In this document: positions 20,700 to 60,610 of the stretch, piece after piece
How positions within the stretch are numbered: position 1 is the stretch's first letter
Layout of the letters: every line of letters starts with the position of its first letter
NCBI GenBank assembly: GCA_003151395.1
Contig: PLXJ01000047.1
Location: 40,684-103,484 of the forward strand
Direction of reading: 5' to 3'
DNA length: 62,801 bases
Origin: Actinomycetota bacterium
GTDB lineage: Bacteria; Actinomycetota; Actinomycetes; Nanopelagicales; Nanopelagicaceae
Translations under genes and position numbers: made by a program
The notes under the pieces: generated by a model
What the model was told of the DNA's origin: nothing
The model's database searches: none
Seen by the model: the letters and a program-made list of their open reading frames with translations, nothing else

Positions 20700-22730
20700 A
20701 TGTCTCAAGCGCTGCCATATCCATCGGCCCCCGCGCAATCGGAATCCCGCGGCGTCTTGGCTATCCCGGCCTTTCGCAAGCTATGGAAGAGCATGGCCTT
20801 CTCCTCCTTTGGCGATTGGCTCGGATTGCTCGCAACAACTGCGCTCGCTTCCGATCTCGGTGGAAACTATAAGAAGGCGAACTTTGCTATCGCTGGCGTG
20901 TTTATTGTCCGTTTACTTCCTGCAGTATTACTTGGCCCGATAGCAGGAGTTATTGCCGACAAATTTGATCGCCGCAGACTAATGATCATCTGCGACATTC
21001 TCCGCTTTGGTCTCTACCTCTCTATTCCACTGGTTCACACCTATTTCTGGCTTTACACAGGAACAGCCATCGTCGAAACAGTAACTCTCTTCTGGTCGCC
21101 AGCAAAAGAAGCTTCGGTACCAAATCTCGTTCCCAAAGATAAGCTCGAATCTGCAAATCAAATGACCCTGATTGCGAGTTACGGAAGCGCCCCCTTTGGT
21201 GGAGTTATGTTCTCTCTGCTCGCCGGAGTATCAGCAATCATTGCCCCCTTTACTAATACTCGTTACTCATCTACCGCAGATTTGGCGCTTTATATTGACT
21301 CCATTACTTTCTTGTACACCGCCTGGGTTGTTTATCAATTAAAAATTATCCCAAGAGGCGCTGCATCTAAGAGCGCCGTTAATGACAACATTGGAAAATC
21401 GTTGATTGATGGTTTTAAATTTGTATCGCACTCCAAAGTAATTAGTGGGCTCATCATCGGCATGCTCGGAGCTTTCTTTGCCGCAGGTGCTGTCATTGGC
21501 CTAGGAAAAACCTTCGTAGGTGATTTGAACGCTGGCGATGCTGCGTACGGAATCCTATTTGTTGCGGTTTTCACCGGTCTTGCACTTGGCATTTGGCTTG
21601 GACCTAAGATTTTTGGACAATTTTCTAGGCGGCGAATCTTTGGAATTTCGCTGACCATCTCCTCGGCTTTCTTGGTGATCTTTTCACTTGTCTCCAACAT
21701 TGTTCTTGCAATCTTAATGACAATCACTTTAGGAGCCTTCGCCGGACTCTCCTTCGTCACCGGTTTTACCTTGCTTGGATTGGAGGTTGAAGATGAAGTA
21801 CGTGGTCGCGTCTTCGCCTTCGTACAATCCCTCACCAGAATTTCATTGCTTGTAGTGCTCGCAGTCGGACCAGTCCTAGCTGCCGTTATTGGCCGTCATG
21901 AATTCACGATCGACAATGTGCATCTCCATTACAGTGGGGCAGCATTTACGCTTTTTGGAGCGGGAATCATAGGTCTCGTCGTCGGCATCTTCTCGTATAA
22001 ACGTATGAAAGATCGTCCAAAAGTCTCGTTTTTCTCGGACATCAGGGCGGCTTTTCGCGGTGAATTAGGTGGAATTACCGGCAAATCACACAAAGGGATC
22101 TTCATCGCTTTTGAGGGAGGAGAAGGTTCCGGCAAATCGACTCAGGTTGAACTACTCAAAACTTTTCTAGTCGGCATTGGTGAAGATGTAGTTGTAACGC
22201 GCGAACCAGGCGGAACAGATTTAGGAAAGCAACTGCGGAAAATTTTGTTAGATCCAAAAACAGGTGAGATATCGCCGCGGGCAGAGGCTCTTATGTATGC
22301 CGCGGATCGAGCCAACCACGTTCACTCACTCATTCAACCGGCACTTGCGCGTGGAGAGACTGTAATCACGGATAGATATTTAGACTCGTCAATTGCATAC
22401 CAAGGTGCGGGACGAATTATGGAACCGAATGAAGTGGCACGAATTTCTAGATGGGCAACCGAATCCCTCACACCTAATTTAACAATCATTTTGGATCTCC
22501 CCGCCGACATTGGCCTGGCGAGACTTAACAGCATTGATCGACTTGAGCAGGAGCCGCTTGCTTTTCATGAGCGAGTGCGCCGTGAATTTCTCAATTTAGC
22601 AAATGTTGATCCAGAACGCTATTTTGTCGTTGACGGCACCGCACGCGTAGATGAGATTGCCAAGCAGATTCAAGATCGCATCTCTCAGATCCCTCAATTA
22701 AAAGTCAACCGCGAAAAATTAAAAAAATAA
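20700..22730 (+). CDS. tmk: Fusion of MFS-type membrane domain and thymidylate kinase
   Basis: This 676-residue protein has two parts. Residues 25-450 form a 12-helix major-facilitator-like domain (FGDWLGLLATTALASDLGGN; GVIADKFDRRRLMI). Residues 466-676 form a complete dTMP kinase with P-loop FEGGEGSGKST (about residue 472), TREPGGT and the DRYLDSSIAYQGAGR motif. The kinase makes dTDP for DNA synthesis; why it is membrane-tethered is unknown. Such fusions are known in other actinobacteria (for example Streptomyces), so this is not an assembly artefact. holB follows after 2 nt, a common tmk-holB pairing. Confidence 0.92.
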   Translation: MSQALPYPSAPAQSESRGVLAIPAFRKLWKSMAFSSFGDWLGLLATTALASDLGGNYKKANFAIAGVFIVRLLPAVLLGPIAGVIADKFDRRRLMIICDILRFGLYLSIPLVHTYFWLYTGTAIVETVTLFWSPAKEASVPNLVPKDKLESANQMTLIASYGSAPFGGVMFSLLAGVSAIIAPFTNTRYSSTADLALYIDSITFLYTAWVVYQLKIIPRGAASKSAVNDNIGKSLIDGFKFVSHSKVISGLIIGMLGAFFAAGAVIGLGKTFVGDLNAGDAAYGILFVAVFTGLALGIWLGPKIFGQFSRRRIFGISLTISSAFLVIFSLVSNIVLAILMTITLGAFAGLSFVTGFTLLGLEVEDEVRGRVFAFVQSLTRISLLVVLAVGPVLAAVIGRHEFTIDNVHLHYSGAAFTLFGAGIIGLVVGIFSYKRMKDRPKVSFFSDIRAAFRGELGGITGKSHKGIFIAFEGGEGSGKSTQVELLKTFLVGIGEDVVVTREPGGTDLGKQLRKILLDPKTGEISPRAEALMYAADRANHVHSLIQPALARGETVITDRYLDSSIAYQGAGRIMEPNEVARISRWATESLTPNLTIILDLPADIGLARLNSIDRLEQEPLAFHERVRREFLNLANVDPERYFVVDGTARVDEIAKQIQDRISQIPQLKVNREKLKK

Positions 22731-39033: not shown

Positions 39034-40668
39034 ATGTCTACGTTCCGTAATTTAGGTGTTACCCCTGCGCTCTGCGAGGCTCTAGAAGCTGAGGGCAAGA
39101 CCGCACCATTCCCTATTCAAACCGCCACTTTGCCGGACGCAATTAATGGTCGCGATGTGCTTGGTCGCGGGCAAACCGGCTCAGGAAAGACGCTCGCCTT
39201 TGGCCTAGCAATGCTTACCCGCCTCAACGGCCGTACCGCAAAGGCGCATAGGCCCCTTGGATTAATTCTCTCTCCAACTCGCGAACTTGCTGTTCAAATC
39301 AATGAAGTGATTTCACCGCTTGCTCGAAAAATTGGTCTCTCATCACAAGTTGTCGCCGGTGGACTTTCGTATATTGGCCAGATCCAAGCGCTCAAACGCG
39401 GAGTTCCGGTCATAGTTGCTACTCCAGGCCGCTTGATGGATCTACTCGAAAAAAAGCACATCGATCTCTCTGACGTAATGATTACGGTATTAGATGAGGC
39501 CGATCAGATGGCTGATATGGGCTTCCTGCCTGTTGTTAAAGAAATTTTGTCGCTAACTCAAGAAGGCGGACAACACCTACTATTCTCTGCAACGCTTGAT
39601 CGCGACGTCGATTCGCTAGTAAAACGCTTCCTCAAAGATCCGATCACTCATTCACTTGAAAATGAGAAGTCACGGGCCGTCGACATGACTCATCACCTCT
39701 TGCTGCTCGATCAACAACACAAAGATGAAATTTCGGCTCAAATTGCTGCTAGAAATGGCCGCACAATTTTCTTCGTACGTACAAAGCATGGTGCGGATAA
39801 ACTCGCAGAAAAGATGCTTCGTAGTGGTGTGCCAGTTGGCGTGCTTCATGGTGGAAAATCTCAAGGACAACGTACCCGAGTTCTCAAAGCATTCAAAGAT
39901 GGTCGCGCCTCTGCACTCGTAGCCACAGATGTCGCGGCTCGCGGTATTCACGTTGACGATGTTTCTCTCATCGTGCATGTTGATGCTCCAGCAGACCATA
40001 AAGACTATTTACACCGCGCCGGACGTACTGCTCGAGCTGGTGCAACTGGAACAGTAGTAACGCTAGCCACACACAAACAGAAGAAGGCGGTTTTTGGAAT
40101 TACAAACCGCGCTGCGGTGAAGTTAATAGAGAACCAGGTTCGCCCCGGCGACTCCAAACTCCAAGAAATCACGGGAGCTCAGGAACCATCTGGAATTCCT
40201 ATCGAAGTAGAAGCAGAAAAGCCATCTCGCAATGATCGTAAGCCCGGTAGCCGCAGTCGCTCAAATGATCGCGGAAACCGTGATGGCAACTTCAAGCCAC
40301 GTAAATCCGGTGGCGGTACTTTTGAAAGAGCAACCAAATCGGAGGACACTCCAGCGCCATCCGTTCGTTCCGATCGTAGCGATCGTCCCTTCCGATCAGC
40401 TCCAAAGAAGTGGGAAGAGAAGGCACGCGATTCACGTGATCGCGCTGACGGCACGAGCGCCACTGTCGGCAACCGTGGACGTGTCGAGGCGGCACCTGTA
40501 AGTAGATCTGTTAAGAAAGCACCTCGGATGCCACTTGAGAAACGCATTGCACTCGAGAAAGCCGAGTCACGATCCCGAGCAGGCAAATCTGCCGGTCCAA
40601 AGAAGTTTGCTAAGGCTGGCGGAAAAACTTATAAGACGGGAAAGCCGAGTCAGGCTAAGCGAGGCTAA
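39034..40668 (+). CDS. DEAD-box ATP-dependent RNA helicase
   Basis: This 544-residue RNA helicase has all core motifs: GQTGSGKTLAF (motif I), PTRELA, TPGRL, VLDEADQMADMGF (motif II), SATL (III), TDVAARGIHV (V) and HRAGRTARAG (VI). After the core (about residue 370) comes a 170-residue basic, Arg/Ser/Gly-rich tail that would bind RNA, as in cold-shock or ribosome-assembly helicases. Its last 14 nt overlap the convergent ABC ATPase gene. Confidence 0.95.
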   Translation: MSTFRNLGVTPALCEALEAEGKTAPFPIQTATLPDAINGRDVLGRGQTGSGKTLAFGLAMLTRLNGRTAKAHRPLGLILSPTRELAVQINEVISPLARKIGLSSQVVAGGLSYIGQIQALKRGVPVIVATPGRLMDLLEKKHIDLSDVMITVLDEADQMADMGFLPVVKEILSLTQEGGQHLLFSATLDRDVDSLVKRFLKDPITHSLENEKSRAVDMTHHLLLLDQQHKDEISAQIAARNGRTIFFVRTKHGADKLAEKMLRSGVPVGVLHGGKSQGQRTRVLKAFKDGRASALVATDVAARGIHVDDVSLIVHVDAPADHKDYLHRAGRTARAGATGTVVTLATHKQKKAVFGITNRAAVKLIENQVRPGDSKLQEITGAQEPSGIPIEVEAEKPSRNDRKPGSRSRSNDRGNRDGNFKPRKSGGGTFERATKSEDTPAPSVRSDRSDRPFRSAPKKWEEKARDSRDRADGTSATVGNRGRVEAAPVSRSVKKAPRMPLEKRIALEKAESRSRAGKSAGPKKFAKAGGKTYKTGKPSQAKRG

Positions 40669-41257
40669 TTACTCGATCAAAAGAGTTTGCGATGGCGTCC
40701 TGATTGTGAGAAATCACCAGGACGCCCTTCTCTTTCTTTAATTCAGAAACAATTTCTAGTATCCGTCCAGTTGATTGTGAATCTTGCGCGCTAAATGGTT
40801 CGTCAAGCAGGTAGTAATCAGCCGCTTGGCTTAGCGCAAGCGCCAGACTTACGCGCTCTTGTTGACCGATGGATAGTTCGGTTACTTTTTTCGTTAAAAG
40901 ATCCGTCAAGCCCAACTGCGCAATCAAGTGATCATTCTCTTTGATTCGACGCTTTTTCGGTAAAAACTCAAGTACTTCGGCGACTGTAAATGCAAGAGTG
41001 AATGAGCGGCGCTGCGGAGCAATCGATCGGAGTGAAGCCTGCTCGCCGGCGCTCAATTGACTAACAGCCTTTTCGTTAATGGAGATAATTCCAGAATCTG
41101 GTTTGAGAAGTCCGCCGATTAAACCTATTAACGTGCTCTTTCCGGAACCGTTAGGACCCGTGAGAAGTACCGCCTCACCAACCTCCAGTTTTTCGTTGAA
41201 TTGCCTGTATATTTGGTGTGCTCCGCGAGCAAAGGAGAGCGCCTTAATCTCAATCAT
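40655..41257 (-). CDS. ABC importer ATPase, hemin/iron type
   Basis: This 200-residue ATPase has Walker A GPNGSGKST (about residue 34), the signature LSIGQQERVSLAL and Walker B YYLLDEPFSAQD. At 200 residues it is short for the FecE/HmuV/BtuD family (about 250). It overlaps the permease gene by 8 nt and is the last gene of a three-gene import operon (binding protein, permease, ATPase). It energises uptake of what is probably heme or an iron chelate. Confidence 0.88.
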   Translation of the reverse strand: MIEIKALSFARGAHQIYRQFNEKLEVGEAVLLTGPNGSGKSTLIGLIGGLLKPDSGIISINEKAVSQLSAGEQASLRSIAPQRRSFTLAFTVAEVLEFLPKKRRIKENDHLIAQLGLTDLLTKKVTELSIGQQERVSLALALSQAADYYLLDEPFSAQDSQSTGRILEIVSELKKEKGVLVISHNQDAIANSFDRVISLA

Positions 41258-42230
41258 GGCTCACCCACGATGCACGCCGAACGCGGAGCAAAATAATGAG
41301 AGCCGGGGCTCCCAAAAGCGAAGTTAGCAAGCCAAGTGGGATTTCATTTGGCCGAAAGAGCGTCCTTGCGAGCAAATCTGCCAAGAGGAGGACGATGGCA
41401 CCAACCAGCGCGCTCAAGGACAACATTTTCCGGTGGGCAGGGCCAATTAGTAAGCGAACGATATGTGGTACTAAGAGTCCTATGAAAGCGATTGAGCCTA
41501 CTGCGCTAACTGAGGCGCCAATCAGGAAGGCCAGCCCAATAATTGCGTATAGTCGAAGTCGTTTCGGATTTACGCCCATGTAATGGGCAGAATTTTCTCC
41601 CAAAGAATAAATGTCTAACTTGCGCGAAACCATGAAGCAGATGATGACTCCCACTTCTATATAGGGAGCAATCATTCCAACCGTTGCATTATTGAGAAGC
41701 GTCAAAGATCCAAAATCCCAGAATGTAATGGATTGAATTCCAGGTTTCGGGGACATTGAGATTAGAAGCCCTGCGACAGAGGTCAATATGGCCGAGACCG
41801 CAATTCCGGTTAATAAAAAACCAAAACCCTTACCCGGTGCCAACCATTGAACTAGTAGCGCAGTAAGCGCAGAAGCTAGGACCGCCGCGGCGATATTGGT
41901 GCGTGTTCCATATATTGAGGTTCCAGAAGCGATTAAGGCAATCGTTCCTAGTGTTGCGCCACTGGATAAACCAATCAGAGTCGGCTCTGCCAACGGATTT
42001 TGAAATATTCCTTGTGCCACAGCACCTGCGACTCCCAGCCCCGCACCAATAATTACCGCTCCGAGAGCTCGGGGGAAGCGCACCTGCCAAACGGTTGTTG
42101 CATCGACATCATGCTTACCAATGAGTGAAAAGATCGATCGGTGCAATTGCAGAATACCGATATCCAGGGAGAGCCAAAAGAGAAAGAGTAGAAGTGCAAA
42201 CCCGCACAAGTAAATAATTAATTTCTTCAC
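41250..42230 (-). CDS. ABC importer permease, FecCD family
   Basis: This 326-residue type II importer permease has about 10 hydrophobic helices. The FecCD motifs are VWQVRFPRALGAVIIGAGLG (coupled to GAVAQGIFQNPLAEP) and AFIGLLVPHIVRLLIG with GPAHR near the C-terminus. The family carries iron-siderophores, heme or vitamin B12. It overlaps the upstream binding-protein gene by 4 nt and the downstream ATPase by 8 nt. Confidence 0.92.
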   Translation of the reverse strand: MKKLIIYLCGFALLLFLFWLSLDIGILQLHRSIFSLIGKHDVDATTVWQVRFPRALGAVIIGAGLGVAGAVAQGIFQNPLAEPTLIGLSSGATLGTIALIASGTSIYGTRTNIAAAVLASALTALLVQWLAPGKGFGFLLTGIAVSAILTSVAGLLISMSPKPGIQSITFWDFGSLTLLNNATVGMIAPYIEVGVIICFMVSRKLDIYSLGENSAHYMGVNPKRLRLYAIIGLAFLIGASVSAVGSIAFIGLLVPHIVRLLIGPAHRKMLSLSALVGAIVLLLADLLARTLFRPNEIPLGLLTSLLGAPALIILLRVRRASWVSHD

Positions 42231-43129
42231 GATTTAGCCGCTGCAATCAGAAGTACACGTAGCGCCTTGGCCATCGGAACGGTGCGGGGACCAAAGGAAA
42301 GCAAGAGAGAATCATCTACGGTAACAATACGTTTGTGTTGCCCGGCGGGAGTTTGTGCAATGCCTGGTAATTGGACAAGTCCACCGATTCCACCAACTGA
42401 GGCCAAACCCTTGGTCATCAGCAAGAGGACATCGGGTTGCAATTTGATTAGTTCTTCAGCGGTTAAGGCGTTGAAAGGAGATTTAAGAGTTGAGGCTCCG
42501 ACATCAATAAAACCGTCTGCTTGTAGTATTGAGTCCGCTCCTGATCCAGGTCCTCCTATTAAGTAAATTGAGGCGGTTCCACGCAAGTAAAGAAAAGCTA
42601 CTTTGATGCCGGTTTTCTTTCCCTGCAGTGACCTTGCTTCCGCCTCAAGTTTCTTTCCGGCTTTAGGAACTCCAAGAGTATTGGCAATAAGACCCTCTTT
42701 TGCGTAAATATCGGCAAGAGTGAACGCGCTTGGTACGTTTACAAGTGGAATTTTTGCCAACTTCAAGGTAGCGAGAGCTGTCGCCGGGGTTGTGTTTGAG
42801 TCAACAAAAACCAAGTCAGGGTGTTGCGAAAGCACGGCCTCGGCGGAAACTTGCATTGCAGATTCGTCAATTGGAATGCTTTTGAGTTCTGGCATTGTAG
42901 ATGCGATATCACGACCAACGAGTATGTTCCTATAACCAAGGGCTGCGACTATCTCTGCGGAACCATTAGCCAGCGCAACAACCCTTTTATACCGCGGTAC
43001 CTCTAAACTCTTTATTACCGGTAGTGAGATTTGACTGGCATTTATATCAGACATTGCGGCATGAGCCGTCGGAGAAAAGGAAAGTACGAGCGCACAAACC
43101 ACGCTCGAACTGACCATCCGTGATCTCAT
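42227..43129 (-). CDS. Secreted heme/iron-type solute-binding protein
   Basis: This 300-residue class III binding protein has a signal peptide ending near TAHA (about residue 24) and no lipobox. The sequence RVVALANGSAEIVAALGY, then ILVGRD, AEAVLSQHPDLVFVDS and the late FGPRTVPMAKALRVL, resembles hemin-binding HmuT more than B12-binding BtuF, but ligand identity is inferred. It is the first gene of the importer operon and is divergent from two secreted neocarzinostatin-fold proteins. A palindrome lies in the 83-bp region between them. Confidence 0.8.
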   Translation of the reverse strand: MRSRMVSSSVVCALVLSFSPTAHAAMSDINASQISLPVIKSLEVPRYKRVVALANGSAEIVAALGYRNILVGRDIASTMPELKSIPIDESAMQVSAEAVLSQHPDLVFVDSNTTPATALATLKLAKIPLVNVPSAFTLADIYAKEGLIANTLGVPKAGKKLEAEARSLQGKKTGIKVAFLYLRGTASIYLIGGPGSGADSILQADGFIDVGASTLKSPFNALTAEELIKLQPDVLLLMTKGLASVGGIGGLVQLPGIAQTPAGQHKRIVTVDDSLLLSFGPRTVPMAKALRVLLIAAAKS

Positions 43130-43152
43130 CCGCGTATTCTGTCATGGAGTTA

Positions 43153-43179
43153 TCCGACAGGGGAGGCTAAGTTGTCGGA
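43153..43179. promoter_or_regulatory. Inverted repeat between importer operon and secreted-protein genes
   Basis: TCCGACA (43153-43159), 13 nt, TGTCGGA (43173-43179) is a perfect 7-bp inverted repeat centrally placed in the divergent intergenic region. It could be an operator controlling both directions, for example by an iron or heme sensor. It does not match the DtxR/IdeR or Fur consensus that I know. Confidence 0.5.
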
Positions 43180-43212
43180 GCAAACTTCGGATCTTTCTTT
43201 TACATTAACGCC

Positions 43213-43689
43213 ATGAAATTGAAGTTAGTTGTTCCGGTCCTCACCTTGATGACGCTCGGAATTTCCGGCGCCGTTGCCGCTACAGGCCAACATGGTGAGG
43301 TGCTTACTGCTTCAAAAGTAACCGGTATTAAGGCTGGGCAAATAATCACTGTCAACGGTAAAAAATTTGATACAAGCATTGGAATTTATGTCGAGATGTG
43401 CCAAGTGGTTCCGGCAGGAGTACTTCCGTCAATCTGCGGCGGCGGAGCCAATTTAACCGGCGGCGGGGCAGCGTCGTTTTGGATTTCATCAAATCCACCA
43501 AGTTATGGCAAGAATTTGGCTATTCCTTTCAAATCGGGTGGCGCATTTTCAGTCGGATTAAAAGTTCAACCCATGATTGGCAAGACCGATTGCCGCAAGG
43601 TTCAATGTGCAATTTATGTGAGGGCTGATCACACAAGAACGCAAGACCGAACGCATGACCTCAAACTCCCAATAACCTTCAGCAAATAA
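43213..43689 (+). CDS. Secreted neocarzinostatin-fold protein 1
   Basis: This 158-residue exported protein has a signal peptide cut near AVAA (about residue 23). It has an Ig-like beta-sandwich resembling the neocarzinostatin/macromomycin apoprotein family: VTGIKAGQIITVNGKKFD, GIYVEMC and the paired cysteines C-11aa-C and C-4aa-C (DCRKVQC), then IYVRADH and the final LPITF strand. The family binds hydrophobic ligands in a cleft. No enediyne synthesis genes are present, so an antibiotic role is unlikely. The location suggests heme or iron capture (inference). TACATT ends 6 nt before the ATG. Confidence 0.78.
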   Translation: MKLKLVVPVLTLMTLGISGAVAATGQHGEVLTASKVTGIKAGQIITVNGKKFDTSIGIYVEMCQVVPAGVLPSICGGGANLTGGGAASFWISSNPPSYGKNLAIPFKSGGAFSVGLKVQPMIGKTDCRKVQCAIYVRADHTRTQDRTHDLKLPITFSK

Positions 43690-43712
43690 TAGAAACCAGA
43701 CGGAAGAGAGAA

Positions 43713-44156
43713 ATGATGAAAAAGAAACTCATAACTGTACTAGCAATAGGACTTGTCGTAGTGGCGGCTCCGCTTGCCAGCGCTAAAGCGACGGTAAGCG
43801 CAACACCTACCAAGAACTTGTCACAGAAAGGTGCGATCGTAACTTTTAAATTTGCGAAATTGCCTGCTAAGAACGGAGTTTATGTTGAAGAGTGCATGGC
43901 ACCCTCTACTAAAGGCGCAACTCCGACTGTCTGCGACTCCGACCAATCTGTTCAAGCTTGGGTTTCAAACGTGAAGGCGGACCTTGCGCAGGGCGCAACT
44001 TCTGGAAAAGGGAAGGTCGCGTTTAAGCCAGTTCCCTACTTTACTAATGGCGACTGCGTTCACACTACATGCGTTTTCTTCATTACAAATGATCACAACG
44101 CAGCAGGGGATAAGTCGCAGAATCAGACAATTCCATTTACTTTTTCTGCGAAGTAG
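43713..44156 (+). CDS. Secreted neocarzinostatin-fold protein 2
   Basis: This 147-residue paralogue of the preceding protein lies 23 nt downstream with its own Shine-Dalgarno. It has a signal peptide ending near ASA (about residue 25), the same GVYVEEC strand and the same cysteine layout (C-12aa-C and DCVHTTC with 4 residues between). It also shares FFITNDHN and the final IPFTF strand. Apart from these landmarks the two proteins differ strongly, indicating an old duplication and perhaps different ligands. Confidence 0.78.
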   Translation: MMKKKLITVLAIGLVVVAAPLASAKATVSATPTKNLSQKGAIVTFKFAKLPAKNGVYVEECMAPSTKGATPTVCDSDQSVQAWVSNVKADLAQGATSGKGKVAFKPVPYFTNGDCVHTTCVFFITNDHNAAGDKSQNQTIPFTFSAK

Positions 44157-44171
44157 TCGTTAAAAAATAGT

Positions 44172-44759
44172 TCAACTTTTAGAAAGAGCTCGAAGTCCAG
44201 CAAGCGCAAAGGTTACAGCGCTCTGAATTTCGAGCTCTGCGTTATTTCCAGCGTCAATTCGAATTGATGCGGCGTCAGTAATACTCGAGAGCAGAGCAGC
44301 GGCGATGCGAAGATCGGGAAGCCCGGCCTCGAAGAGCGCTTCTTGGAGCGGAGCCATCATCCGTCGATGACCCAGCAAGATTTCTTCTTTGCGATCTAAA
44401 GGAGTATTGATTGTGTTGAGGGATTTAACCAGCATGTGACGGCCATCTGCCACATAACGCAGACTCTCAGCAACCCAGAGTTCGATCCTTTGAAAAGCGT
44501 CTGTCTCTCCAGCAACTGCTTCGGCCAAACGACTGGTGTAATAGTCAAGTTCTTCTAGGACGAGATCGGCAACAAGATCAGCGCTAGATGCGAAGTATTC
44601 GTAAATAGAACTTCTAGCCAATCCAGCCTTTGCTGCAACTGCTGCAACGCTGATCGCTTCTGCACCATTTGTTAACGCCAGTTCCATCGCCGCATCGATC
44701 AGTTGTTGGCGGCGCAACTCCCTGTGTAACGCAATGGTCGGAGCTTGAATTTTTGGCAT
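44172..44759 (-). CDS. TetR-family transcriptional regulator
   Basis: This 195-residue repressor has the N-terminal TetR helix-turn-helix (LRRQQLIDAAMELALTNGAE, then SVAAVAAKAGLARSSIYEYF) and an alpha-helical ligand domain. It is divergent from an azoreductase-like gene, and a near-perfect palindromic operator lies between the two. It therefore probably represses the azoreductase gene and itself until a quinone- or dye-like compound binds; this is inference from context. Confidence 0.92.
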   Translation of the reverse strand: MPKIQAPTIALHRELRRQQLIDAAMELALTNGAEAISVAAVAAKAGLARSSIYEYFASSADLVADLVLEELDYYTSRLAEAVAGETDAFQRIELWVAESLRYVADGRHMLVKSLNTINTPLDRKEEILLGHRRMMAPLQEALFEAGLPDLRIAAALLSSITDAASIRIDAGNNAELEIQSAVTFALAGLRALSKS

Positions 44760-57690: not shown

Positions 57691-59034
57691 TTAGTTACCA
57701 GCTGGCCAAGCTGAATCGATACGAGCCGCAACCGTCTTCACTGGAGTTCCATTAGCGAACCAATCGGTGAATCCGGTCCATTCTGCGCCGTTTCCGATAG
57801 CAGCTGGCATAGCGTCAGATGCATCGAAGACGAAGGTAGAAGTTGGATCAGCGAGGTACTTAGCTGATAGTGCATCCAAGGGGGTGGAGTATGTAGCAGC
57901 AGGTACGCCACTATTTGCACTCAACCAACCACCGTTTGCGCCAGCAGCCTTAATGCGGGCGACAGCCCATTGTGGTGAGGACAGGAAGGTCTGAGCTTCA
58001 ACGGTATCCTTGTTTGAGTTAAAGGCGAGGTAGAACTCTCCGCCACCTTCAACAGGTGTTGTTACAGCTGGGTTGATACCTGGGAGGTAGTAAACCCATG
58101 CATCACCGGTAGGAGAGACAACAGAACCTGCTGGCAATGAGGCAGCAATGAATGATGCCTGCTGTAGTTGCATGCAACCACCTGAAGGAATTCCTGTGAC
58201 TGCATCTTGGAAGGATGTTGTAGCAATGGTGGAAACCTTGCCAACATACTTGGAGTTACCCATCCAACCCAATACGGTATTCATAGCGTGGATGATTGGA
58301 GCATCTGAGAACTTCACCTTGTGTGAAATCCAGTTGTTGTAGACAGTTGCGCCAGCTTCACGAACAACTACCTCTTCAAGCCAGTCAGTTGCAGGCCATC
58401 CGGTAGCGCCACCAGAACCGATACCGCCGCACCATGCTGTTTGACCAGCTGCAGCCATCTTGTCTGATTGAGTGAACATCTGTGCCCATGTTGTTGGGAC
58501 TGTGTAATTATATTTAGCGAATTGCTTTGGTGAATACCAAACAAGTGACTTGAGGTTAGCTGAGTTAGGTGCTGCGTAGAAGGTACCGTTAACGGAACCT
58601 AGATTGCGCCAGCTCTTTGACCAGTAACGGTTGATGTTGTTCTTAACTGCTGAGGGAGCAGGAACAGCTTTACCAGTCGCAACCATCTGCGCGATTAAAC
58701 CTGGTTGTGGAACCAATGCGAGATCTGGGGCAGTGCCACCAGCAACGCGTACTGGAAGTTGGGATTCGAACTGATCGCTACCGTTCCAGTTAATCTTGAT
58801 ACCGGTGCAAGCGGTGAATGCAGCTGATGCTGCTGCGTAGCGTGTGAGTTCATCGCCAACGACAGAGGTGAACACTTCAACGGTCTGGCCTTTTTGAACG
58901 GCATAACCTGAACCTACGGATGCGCAGTTTGCTGTACTTGTACCTGCATAAGCCGCGGGAGTTACAAATGTTGCAACGAGCGCAACGGTTGCCGTGGCGA
59001 CGCCAGCGAGCAAACCTTTTTTGCTAATCGACAT
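57691..59034 (-). CDS. ABC sugar solute-binding protein 1
   Basis: This 447-residue extracellular CUT1-family binding protein has a cleavable signal peptide ending near AAYA (about residue 30). The bacterial extracellular protein family 1 body includes VEVFTSVVGDELTRYAA, RVAGGTAPDLALVPQPGLI and a C-terminal EWTGFTDWFANGTPVKTVA. The mature N-terminus keeps a Cys pair (TANCASV ... FTACTGI). It has no lipobox. It is a tandem duplicate of the next gene, with a 209-bp identical tract. Ligand: probably an oligosaccharide, judged from the neighbouring GH1 and GH13 enzymes. Confidence 0.93.
   Translation of the reverse strand: MSISKKGLLAGVATATVALVATFVTPAAYAGTSTANCASVGSGYAVQKGQTVEVFTSVVGDELTRYAAASAAFTACTGIKINWNGSDQFESQLPVRVAGGTAPDLALVPQPGLIAQMVATGKAVPAPSAVKNNINRYWSKSWRNLGSVNGTFYAAPNSANLKSLVWYSPKQFAKYNYTVPTTWAQMFTQSDKMAAAGQTAWCGGIGSGGATGWPATDWLEEVVVREAGATVYNNWISHKVKFSDAPIIHAMNTVLGWMGNSKYVGKVSTIATTSFQDAVTGIPSGGCMQLQQASFIAASLPAGSVVSPTGDAWVYYLPGINPAVTTPVEGGGEFYLAFNSNKDTVEAQTFLSSPQWAVARIKAAGANGGWLSANSGVPAATYSTPLDALSAKYLADPTSTFVFDASDAMPAAIGNGAEWTGFTDWFANGTPVKTVAARIDSAWPAGN
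57719..57927. repeat. 209-bp perfect repeat, copy 1 (in binding protein 1)
   Basis: Bases 57719-57927 are identical to 59274-59482 in the neighbouring paralogue, including all synonymous sites. Outside this block the two genes differ repeatedly, for example just after 57928, so the block looks like a gene-conversion tract. Confidence 0.9.
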
Positions 59035-59245: not shown

Positions 59246-60610
59246 TTATTTACTAGCAGGCCAAGCAGCATCAATACGAGCCGCAACCGTCTTCACTGGA
59301 GTTCCATTAGCGAACCAATCGGTGAATCCGGTCCATTCTGCGCCGTTTCCGATAGCAGCTGGCATAGCGTCAGATGCATCGAAGACGAAGGTAGAAGTTG
59401 GATCAGCGAGGTACTTAGCTGATAGTGCATCCAAGGGGGTGGAGTATGTAGCAGCAGGTACGCCACTATTTGCACTCAACCAGCCACCGTTTGCGCCAGC
59501 AGCCTTAATGCGGGCGATGGCCCATTGTGGCGTTGAGAAGAATGTTTGAGCTTCAACAGTTGCCTTGCTTGAGTTAAAGGCGAGGTAGAACTCTCCGCCA
59601 CCTTCAACAGGTGTTGTTACAGCTGGATTGATACCTGGGAGGTAGTAAACCCATGCATCACCGGTAGGAGAGACAACAGAACCTGCCGGCAATGAGGCAG
59701 CAATGAATGATGCCTGCTGTAGTTGCATGCAACCACCTGAAGGAATTCCTGTGACTGCATCTTGGAAAGTAGTTGTAGCAATGGTGGAAACCTTGCCAAC
59801 ATACTTGGAGTTACCCATCCAACCCAACACGGTATTCATAGCGTGGATGATTGGAGCATCTGAGAACTTAACCTTGTGTGTAATCCAGTTGTTGTAGACA
59901 GTTGCGCCAGCTTCACGAACAACTACCTCTTCAAGCCAGTCAGTTGCAGGCCATCCAGTAGCGCCACCAGAACCGATACCGCCACACCATGCTGTTTGAT
60001 GAGCAGCAGCCATCTTGTCTGATTGAGTGAACATCTGTGCCCAAGTTGTTGGGACTGTGTAATGATATTTAGCGAATTGCTTTGGTGAATACCAAACCAA
60101 TGACTTCATGTTGGCAGAGTTAGGTGCTGCGTAGAAGGTGCCGTTAACAGAACCAAGTCCGCTCCAGCTCTTTGACCAGTACTTGTCGACATTGCTCAAG
60201 ACAGCCGAAGGGGCAGGAACAGCTTTACCAGTCGCAACCATCTGCGCGATTAAACCTGGTTGTGGAACCAATGCGAGATCTGGGGCAGTGCCACCAGCAA
60301 CGCGTACTGGAAGTTGGGCTTCGAACTGATCGCTACCGTTCCAGTTGATTTTAATACCTGTGCAAGCAGTGAAGTCAGAAGATGCCGCTGTGTACCGTGT
60401 GAGTTCGTCGCCAACAACAGATGTGAACACTTCAACGGTTTTGCCTTGTTGAACGGCATAACCTGTACCAACATTTGCGCAGTTAGCTGCTGAGGTTCCA
60501 TTTGAACCTGAAGGAGACGAGAGTGTTGCGATGAGCACAACGACTATTGCAACGATCACAACGGCTGCCGATCCTCCGCCAATCATGAGATTTTTCTTGC
60601 TTAACGCCAT
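59246..60610 (-). CDS. ABC sugar solute-binding protein 2
   Basis: This 454-residue paralogue of binding protein 1 is nearly identical over most of the mature part. It differs at the N-terminus, which has a longer hydrophobic anchor (residues 12-31, MIGGGSAAVVIVAIVVVLIA) and a Ser/Gly-rich linker (SSPSGSNGTSAANC), so it may remain membrane-anchored. It too has no lipobox. Substitutions cluster near the start and around residues 160-170 and 365-375. It has its own leader and terminator. Confidence 0.93.
   Translation of the reverse strand: MALSKKNLMIGGGSAAVVIVAIVVVLIATLSSPSGSNGTSAANCANVGTGYAVQQGKTVEVFTSVVGDELTRYTAASSDFTACTGIKINWNGSDQFEAQLPVRVAGGTAPDLALVPQPGLIAQMVATGKAVPAPSAVLSNVDKYWSKSWSGLGSVNGTFYAAPNSANMKSLVWYSPKQFAKYHYTVPTTWAQMFTQSDKMAAAHQTAWCGGIGSGGATGWPATDWLEEVVVREAGATVYNNWITHKVKFSDAPIIHAMNTVLGWMGNSKYVGKVSTIATTTFQDAVTGIPSGGCMQLQQASFIAASLPAGSVVSPTGDAWVYYLPGINPAVTTPVEGGGEFYLAFNSSKATVEAQTFFSTPQWAIARIKAAGANGGWLSANSGVPAATYSTPLDALSAKYLADPTSTFVFDASDAMPAAIGNGAEWTGFTDWFANGTPVKTVAARIDAAWPASK
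59274..59482. repeat. 209-bp perfect repeat, copy 2 (in binding protein 2)
   Basis: This is the partner of the identical block in binding protein 1, at a constant offset of 1555 bp. Confidence 0.9.

Follow-up and report, generated by a model that had tools for sequence, protein, structure and literature searches.

What do two small exported proteins, built like the carriers of enediyne antibiotics, do next to an importer of the heme/iron type? This question is raised by a locus in the 62,801-nucleotide stretch of DNA analysed here (the window; contig PLXJ01000047.1 of GCA_003151395.1, an actinobacterial assembly of 1.85 Mb), in which an importer operon faces the genes of two such proteins, NCS1 and NCS2. 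An earlier, sequence-only reading had proposed that these proteins capture heme or another planar ligand and hand it to the importer. In the present study, we found evidence that NCS1 and NCS2 capture heme outside the membrane, as proteins of a new kind that feed HmuTUV, within a heme-import module (40655-44759) of a bacterium deficient in heme synthesis, and we put the probability of this reading at roughly two in three. The gene content, the predicted fold, the linkage, the HmuT ligand residues, the complementarity with ferrochelatase and the conservation of the operator were established by computation, and from these results we infer heme binding by NCS1 and NCS2 and hand-over to HmuT. The features of the locus are as follows.

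40655-41257, minus strand: HmuV-like ATPase (200 amino acids; ABC_tran, E 1e-25)
41250-42230, minus strand: FecCD permease, HmuU-like (326 amino acids; PF01032, E 1e-77)
42227-43129, minus strand: HmuT-like putative heme-binding protein (300 amino acids, signal peptide; Peripla_BP_2, E 2e-18)
43153-43179, between the divergent promoters: operator-like inverted repeat TCCGACA-N13-TGTCGGA (exact)
43213-43689, plus strand: NCS1, exported protein of predicted neocarzinostatin fold (158 amino acids, about 136 when mature; AlphaFold2, Foldseek, VIA-align)
43713-44156, plus strand: NCS2, exported paralogue of the same predicted fold (147 amino acids; AlphaFold2, VIA-align)
44172-44759, minus strand, convergent: TetR-family regulator (TetR_N, E 1e-10)

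The ATPase, the permease and the class III binding protein form one minus-strand operon (40655-43129), which NCS1 and NCS2 face. The sequence-only reading, which described this divergent arrangement from the span 42227-44156, agreed with the gene coordinates and Pfam matches; the permease and ATPase genes fall just beyond that span, and the TetR gene, which belongs to the conserved block, was absent from it. The best NCBIfam model for the ATPase was the 'heme ABC transporter ATP-binding protein' (E 8e-35, under that model's cut-off). NCS1 and NCS2 both carry N-terminal signal peptides, as read from their sequences, and proved to be true paralogues (BLASTP E 1e-12, 25% identity; profile-profile comparison 99.5%, E 2e-22). 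Each protein has the two cysteine pairs that had been noticed before, C63/C75 and C127/C132 in NCS1 and C61/C74 and C115/C120 in NCS2; the second pair has exactly four residues between (C-x4-C), and this arrangement of two pairs is invariant among the NCS1 relatives.

The fold of both proteins was examined using AlphaFold2 models built with alignments of 75 (NCS1) and 51 (NCS2) sequences, which reached predicted local distance difference test scores of 87 and 96, respectively. With Foldseek, the top 12 rows for NCS1 were all structures of the chromoprotein family, including macromomycin (2mcm, E 2.5e-6), and the lesser matches were antibody domains. Foldseek was indecisive for NCS2 and did not place it by itself; the placement came from VIA-align, with a Z score of 11.4 to neocarzinostatin (2cbq) and 6.6 to the next unrelated fold. 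The corresponding values for NCS1 with VIA-align 2 were 12.0 to 2mcm and 7.1. Because the chromoprotein scores stood well above those of unrelated folds for both proteins, the models supported the neocarzinostatin/macromomycin fold that had been suspected from strands and cysteine spacing. No relation to HtaA was observed: PF04213 did not match NCS1 or NCS2, hhalign gave a probability of 0.1%, and HtaA was absent among the structural matches listed for the two proteins.

Single-sequence searches were less telling. Against PF00960, NCS1 scored 14 bits (E 0.05), short of the Pfam gathering cut-off of 25 bits, and no match was listed for NCS2; the family was matched at E 0.01 by 37 of the 75 NCS1 relatives. 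The model NF040680 ('enediyne antibiotic chromoprotein') was matched by 53 of the 75, and the window proteins scored 24.1 and 29.6 bits (NCS2 E 5e-7) against a cut-off of 86, so that the scores do not support placing NCS1 and NCS2 in this enediyne chromoprotein equivalog. When single sequences were compared with the PDB, NCS1 had no useful match, and ThiX was the only one for NCS2. Other PF00960 matches in the window genome fell mostly on repeats of a 1961-amino-acid protein and on an IPT/TIG protein, both encoded on different contigs; they were judged to be unrelated immunoglobulin-like (Ig-like) repeats and set aside.

We then counted how often NCS1 lies beside an importer, defined as a binding protein and a FecCD permease within 4 kb. 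Among the 80 top-ranked NCS1 loci of one genome collection, the binding protein was present in 79 and both genes in 76; the four loci without both were short or incomplete contigs. Since this list was the top of a ranking, the count was repeated on 60 NCS1 loci of 394 genomes sampled evenly across the class, and both genes were found within 4 kb in 53 of them. The seven exceptions comprised L231 and L268, which are cut off where the contig or region stops but do have HtaA, four loci of genus g24, and L270. The sequence-only reading had named regular separation of the genes from the importer as evidence against it; for NCS1, adjacency was the rule. In Nanopelagicaceae the NCS genes are divergent from the importer; in Micromonospora, Actinoplanes, Catenuloplanes and Actinomadura they precede hmuTUV and run in the same direction. 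Gene order and orientation thus differ by lineage, indicating that the association was kept through rearrangement and is not frozen synteny. Within the genus of the window, the six-gene block of ATPase, permease, binding protein, NCS1, NCS2 and TetR was conserved; it was intact despite different flanking genes at L078, L079, L081, L086 and L088, and TetR adjoined it in the genus loci whose sequence extends past NCS2. The relatives in one named collection were metagenome-assembled genomes of freshwater actinobacteria, and the block was also carried (L200) by LanE-43 (OX376642), a strain of Ca. Nanopelagicales that is in culture (PMC10202952). A search of plasmids for NCS1 gave no match. Genome G015, which seemed to have the importer without NCS1, was dropped, as its contig ends within the binding-protein gene.

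The substrate of the importer was assessed from the binding protein and the neighbouring genes. The best solved relatives of the HmuT-like protein were 5gj3 (2e-37) and the Corynebacterium glutamicum HmuT (CgHmuT) entries 5az3, 5b4z, 5b50 and 5b51. The axial heme ligands of CgHmuT are His141 and Tyr240, and Arg242 is bonded to Tyr240 (PMC4926363). The window protein keeps Tyr181-x-Arg183-Gly184, and the aligned Tyr, Arg and Gly were present in all 121 binding proteins of NCS1 loci. The importer thus shares with the HmuTUV of C. glutamicum (5az3, 5b4z) the binding protein, permease and ATPase as well as the equivalents of Tyr240 and Arg242, but differs at the His141 position, which is Met92 in the window protein and its clade (His in 105 and Met in 16 of the 121). 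The loci of the Met clade (L129-L142, L144, L145) have a short four-cysteine NCS2, and those of the His clade mostly a long one; this parallel possibly reflects only shared ancestry. With its Y-x-R-type binding protein bearing the Tyr ligand, its FecCD permease and its ATPase, the system in the window is a predicted heme transporter of the HmuTUV type. Heme oxygenase and HtaA each lay near 23 of the 60 NCS1 loci of the even sample, and HtaA occurred in 33 of 69 genomes with NCS1 versus 51 of 325 others (Fisher p 5e-8, ancestry ignored).

We surveyed ferrochelatase in the 112 genomes of the family that were at least 90% complete. Ferrochelatase was encoded by 8 of these genomes and NCS1 by 56, and no genome had both (three genera; Fisher p 0.006, ancestry ignored); NCS1 was thus present in 0 of 8 genomes with ferrochelatase versus 56 of 104 without it. 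Ferrochelatase was not found in the window genome or in any sampled NCS1-bearing genome of the family. The window genome encodes HemA, HemC, HemD, HemB and HemL next to siroheme and sulfate-assimilation genes (all names except HemB were given by reading the sequences), and HemB was found in only 1 of 31 other genomes of the genus. The exception, G011 (99% complete), encodes the complete heme cluster but neither NCS1 nor NCS2 nor HmuT. Heme auxotrophy has been reported for the order Nanopelagicales (PMC10202952, PMC12381374), to which the block-bearing strain LanE-43 belongs. Three findings point strongly to heme as the substrate of the importer: the neighbouring genes for heme oxygenase and HtaA, the ligand residues kept in HmuT, and the mutual exclusion with ferrochelatase. 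Heme oxygenase and HtaA were not found in the sampled genomes of Nanopelagicaceae. Because these genomes lack heme oxygenase and most lack ferrochelatase, heme in this organism is probably wanted as a cofactor and not as an iron source. The leaning of the sequence-only reading towards iron acquisition therefore calls for adjustment in the case of this organism.

The conserved residues of NCS1 were analysed across the 75 sequences. Thirty-odd positions were at least 95% conserved, including Y59, W90, S92-S93-N94-P95-P96-x-Y98, R137-A-D139-H140, R142, D145, R146 and D149, and the invariant motifs read WISSNPPxYG and RADHxRxxDR. Y59 and the DH motif are common to NCS1, NCS2 and ThiX and may be structural in role; the SSNPPxY stretch and the arginines are specific to NCS1. 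The NCS1 of large actinobacteria carries a hydrophobic helix and an Arg-rich tail at its C-terminal end, which fits a capture protein tethered at the surface. A long NCS2 of 310-340 amino acids, with extra C-terminal Ig-like domains, occurs in roughly half of the genus and in most members of the family (e.g. L078:3276-4217, L083:7711-8727 and L089:7667-8674), and the first cysteine pair is lost from the long form in the aligned genus members.

The NCS and HtaA domains also occur together in single proteins. Eighteen open reading frames (ORFs) combined HtaA and NCS-like domains; in the fusion of L244, PF00960 scored 36.3 bits (cut-off 25) together with three HtaA domains, and locus L090 encodes HmuTUV, heme oxygenase and NCS1 together with a wall-anchored HtaA/NCS/HtaA protein of 992 amino acids. 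At L231, L232, L239, L243, L244 and L246, giant surface proteins (about 2400-2650 amino acids) were observed in which an NCS1-like domain forms the C-terminal part and HtaA domains are present three times; they adjoin the genes of NCS1 and heme oxygenase and, if the region extends far enough, those of HmuTUV. In genus g24 (L264, L271, L272, L273), NCS1-like domains occur in tandem genes, some encoding proteins of 735-816 amino acids and one with an I-set domain. These tandem genes have no adjoining importer and perhaps represent a different use of the fold.

The 7-bp inverted repeat noticed earlier at 43153-43179 was exact and the sole perfect copy in the genome. The pattern CCGAC-N14..16-GTCGG recurred in 41 of 71 homologous divergent promoter regions, with about 0.0006 expected per shuffled locus, and more distant lineages had palindromes with identical half-sites and different spacing. 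Judged by this recurrence, the repeat is a conserved operator-like site. The TetR protein is the obvious candidate to bind it. An orthologue of 73% identity (L288:428-1036) adjoins the complete heme-biosynthesis cluster of G011, the one sampled genus member that has this cluster and lacks the importer block. The repeat was not found beside the heme-synthesis genes of G011, G034 and G456.

Taken as a mechanism, the block 40655-44759 would be the heme-import module of a freshwater Nanopelagicaceae (acI) bacterium unable to finish heme synthesis. NCS1 and NCS2, exported and disulfide-stabilised, would act outside the membrane in a hemophore-like manner; their cleft, which takes a flat aromatic ligand in enediyne chromoproteins, would hold heme and pass it to HmuT (42227-43129), and HmuT would hand it to the HmuU/HmuV permease and ATPase. 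TetR probably governs the divergent promoters through the inverted repeat. In larger actinobacteria, NCS1 would be membrane-tethered by its C-terminal helix and work next to HtaA. The functional proposal of the sequence-only reading was thus supported at the pathway level, with capture in the cleft and transfer to HmuT as the most likely reading.

The proposed proteins can be set beside three known systems. They resemble the enediyne apoproteins (neocarzinostatin, macromomycin, C-1027; PF00960/NF040680) in predicted fold, size, two disulfides, C-x4-C and actinobacterial export, but differ in falling under the family cut-offs as single sequences, in their linkage to heme import and in their own WISSNPPxYG and RADHxRxxDR motifs. 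With the HtaA/ChtA CR-domain hemophores of corynebacteria (PF04213) they share the secreted or surface-anchored state and the location beside hmuTUV; unlike them, they show no sequence relation to HtaA, and they occur beside or fused to HtaA, yet also in Nanopelagicaceae, where no HtaA was found. CR domains are beta-sandwiches that bind hemin via a Tyr plus a helper residue (PMC12494546). By analogy, Y98 and H140 of NCS1 would resemble such a pair, which is a guess. Among PDB sequences the nearest is ThiX, from the bcc-aa3 supercomplex of C. glutamicum (7qhm chain M; E 1e-7 with the NCS1 profile, 1.6e-7 with NCS2), and its soluble domain may therefore have the neocarzinostatin fold as well. 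ThiX has the DC-x4-C and DH motifs too. Unlike NCS1 and NCS2, ThiX is a lipoprotein whose soluble domain is unresolved in the structure and which has no known linkage to heme import (PMC8795186).

Several observations weigh against heme capture by NCS1 and NCS2. Nearly half of the 112 family genomes lack both ferrochelatase and NCS1; other heme routes must therefore exist, and NCS1 is not the sole one. The Fisher tests take no account of shared ancestry, and the NCS1-like proteins of g24 (L264, L271-L273) and L270 do not adjoin an importer. The most conserved His, H140 of the DH motif, is also found in ThiX, for which we know of no heme role, and it may accordingly be structural. In one alternative, NCS1 and NCS2 would aid the heme importer without binding heme; with an Ig-like surface as their protein-binding face, they would dock hemoproteins from the environment, scaffold HmuT at the membrane or shield the importer. 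The Ig-like fold, with antibody domains among the lesser structural matches, is in line with this, as is the sharing of the DH motif with ThiX, which serves a respiratory supercomplex as a lipid-anchored accessory subunit (PMC8795186). However, the invariant W90, S92, S93, N94, Y98, R137, D139, H140, R142, D145 and R146 seem too many for a scaffold. Moreover, the ligands of the well-studied proteins of this fold are flat and hydrophobic, and we regard a role without heme binding as unlikely.

A different ligand is less probable still. Permeases of the FecCD type can likewise carry B12 or siderophores, NCBIfam scoring of the window permease does not discriminate between these and heme, and the family genomes sampled yielded neither HtaA nor heme oxygenase, so that the importer might take, and NCS1 and NCS2 might bind, another tetrapyrrole or metal chelate such as cobalamin, coproheme or a siderophore. 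The heme ligand residues in 121 of 121 HmuT proteins, the mutual exclusion of NCS1 and ferrochelatase, and the heme oxygenase and HtaA genes of homologous loci make this quite improbable; in addition, no riboswitch or structured RNA was found in the region. That NCS1 and NCS2 are remote enediyne self-protection or antibiotic-binding proteins, next to an importer by chance, is hardly credible. NF040680 is their nearest named family, but the window proteins score at most 30 bits against its cut-off of 86, the dozens of lineages in which such proteins are encoded near heme genes contradict this idea, and inspection of the window ORFs revealed no enediyne genes, as the sequence-only reading had stated.

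Elsewhere in the window, two features were noticed by reading the sequence. A single ORF at 20700-22730 seems to fuse a major facilitator superfamily transporter with a thymidylate kinase domain, and a tandem pair of nearly identical sugar-type ABC binding proteins lies at 57691-59034 and 59246-60610.

Among the papers listed in a search of open-access literature, none joined neocarzinostatin with HtaA or with a hemophore; subscription papers lay outside this search. NCBIfam has no model naming the NCS family, only the enediyne model, whose cut-off lies far above the scores of the window proteins. NCS1 and NCS2 as a conserved part of heme-import clusters across actinobacteria are therefore apparently undescribed so far. 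A wider view, which we put forward tentatively and hold somewhat short of an even chance, is that the neocarzinostatin fold serves widely among actinobacteria as a heme-binding (hemophore) fold and makes up, in addition to HtaA and HmuTUV, a third component of heme import in general, with the enediyne chromoproteins maybe a specialised offshoot and the NCS1/NCS2 pair replacing HtaA in obligately heme-auxotrophic freshwater acI bacteria. If NCS1 and NCS2 do capture heme, a new extracytoplasmic fold would be added to the few known for this task (NEAT, HasA, HmuY, CR), and the neocarzinostatin fold would have a widespread physiological role beyond enediyne producers. The results suggest what the many actinobacterial proteins of this kind, which have no dedicated family model, might do, and they name candidate genes for heme acquisition by part of the abundant freshwater acI actinobacteria, which are reported heme auxotrophs.

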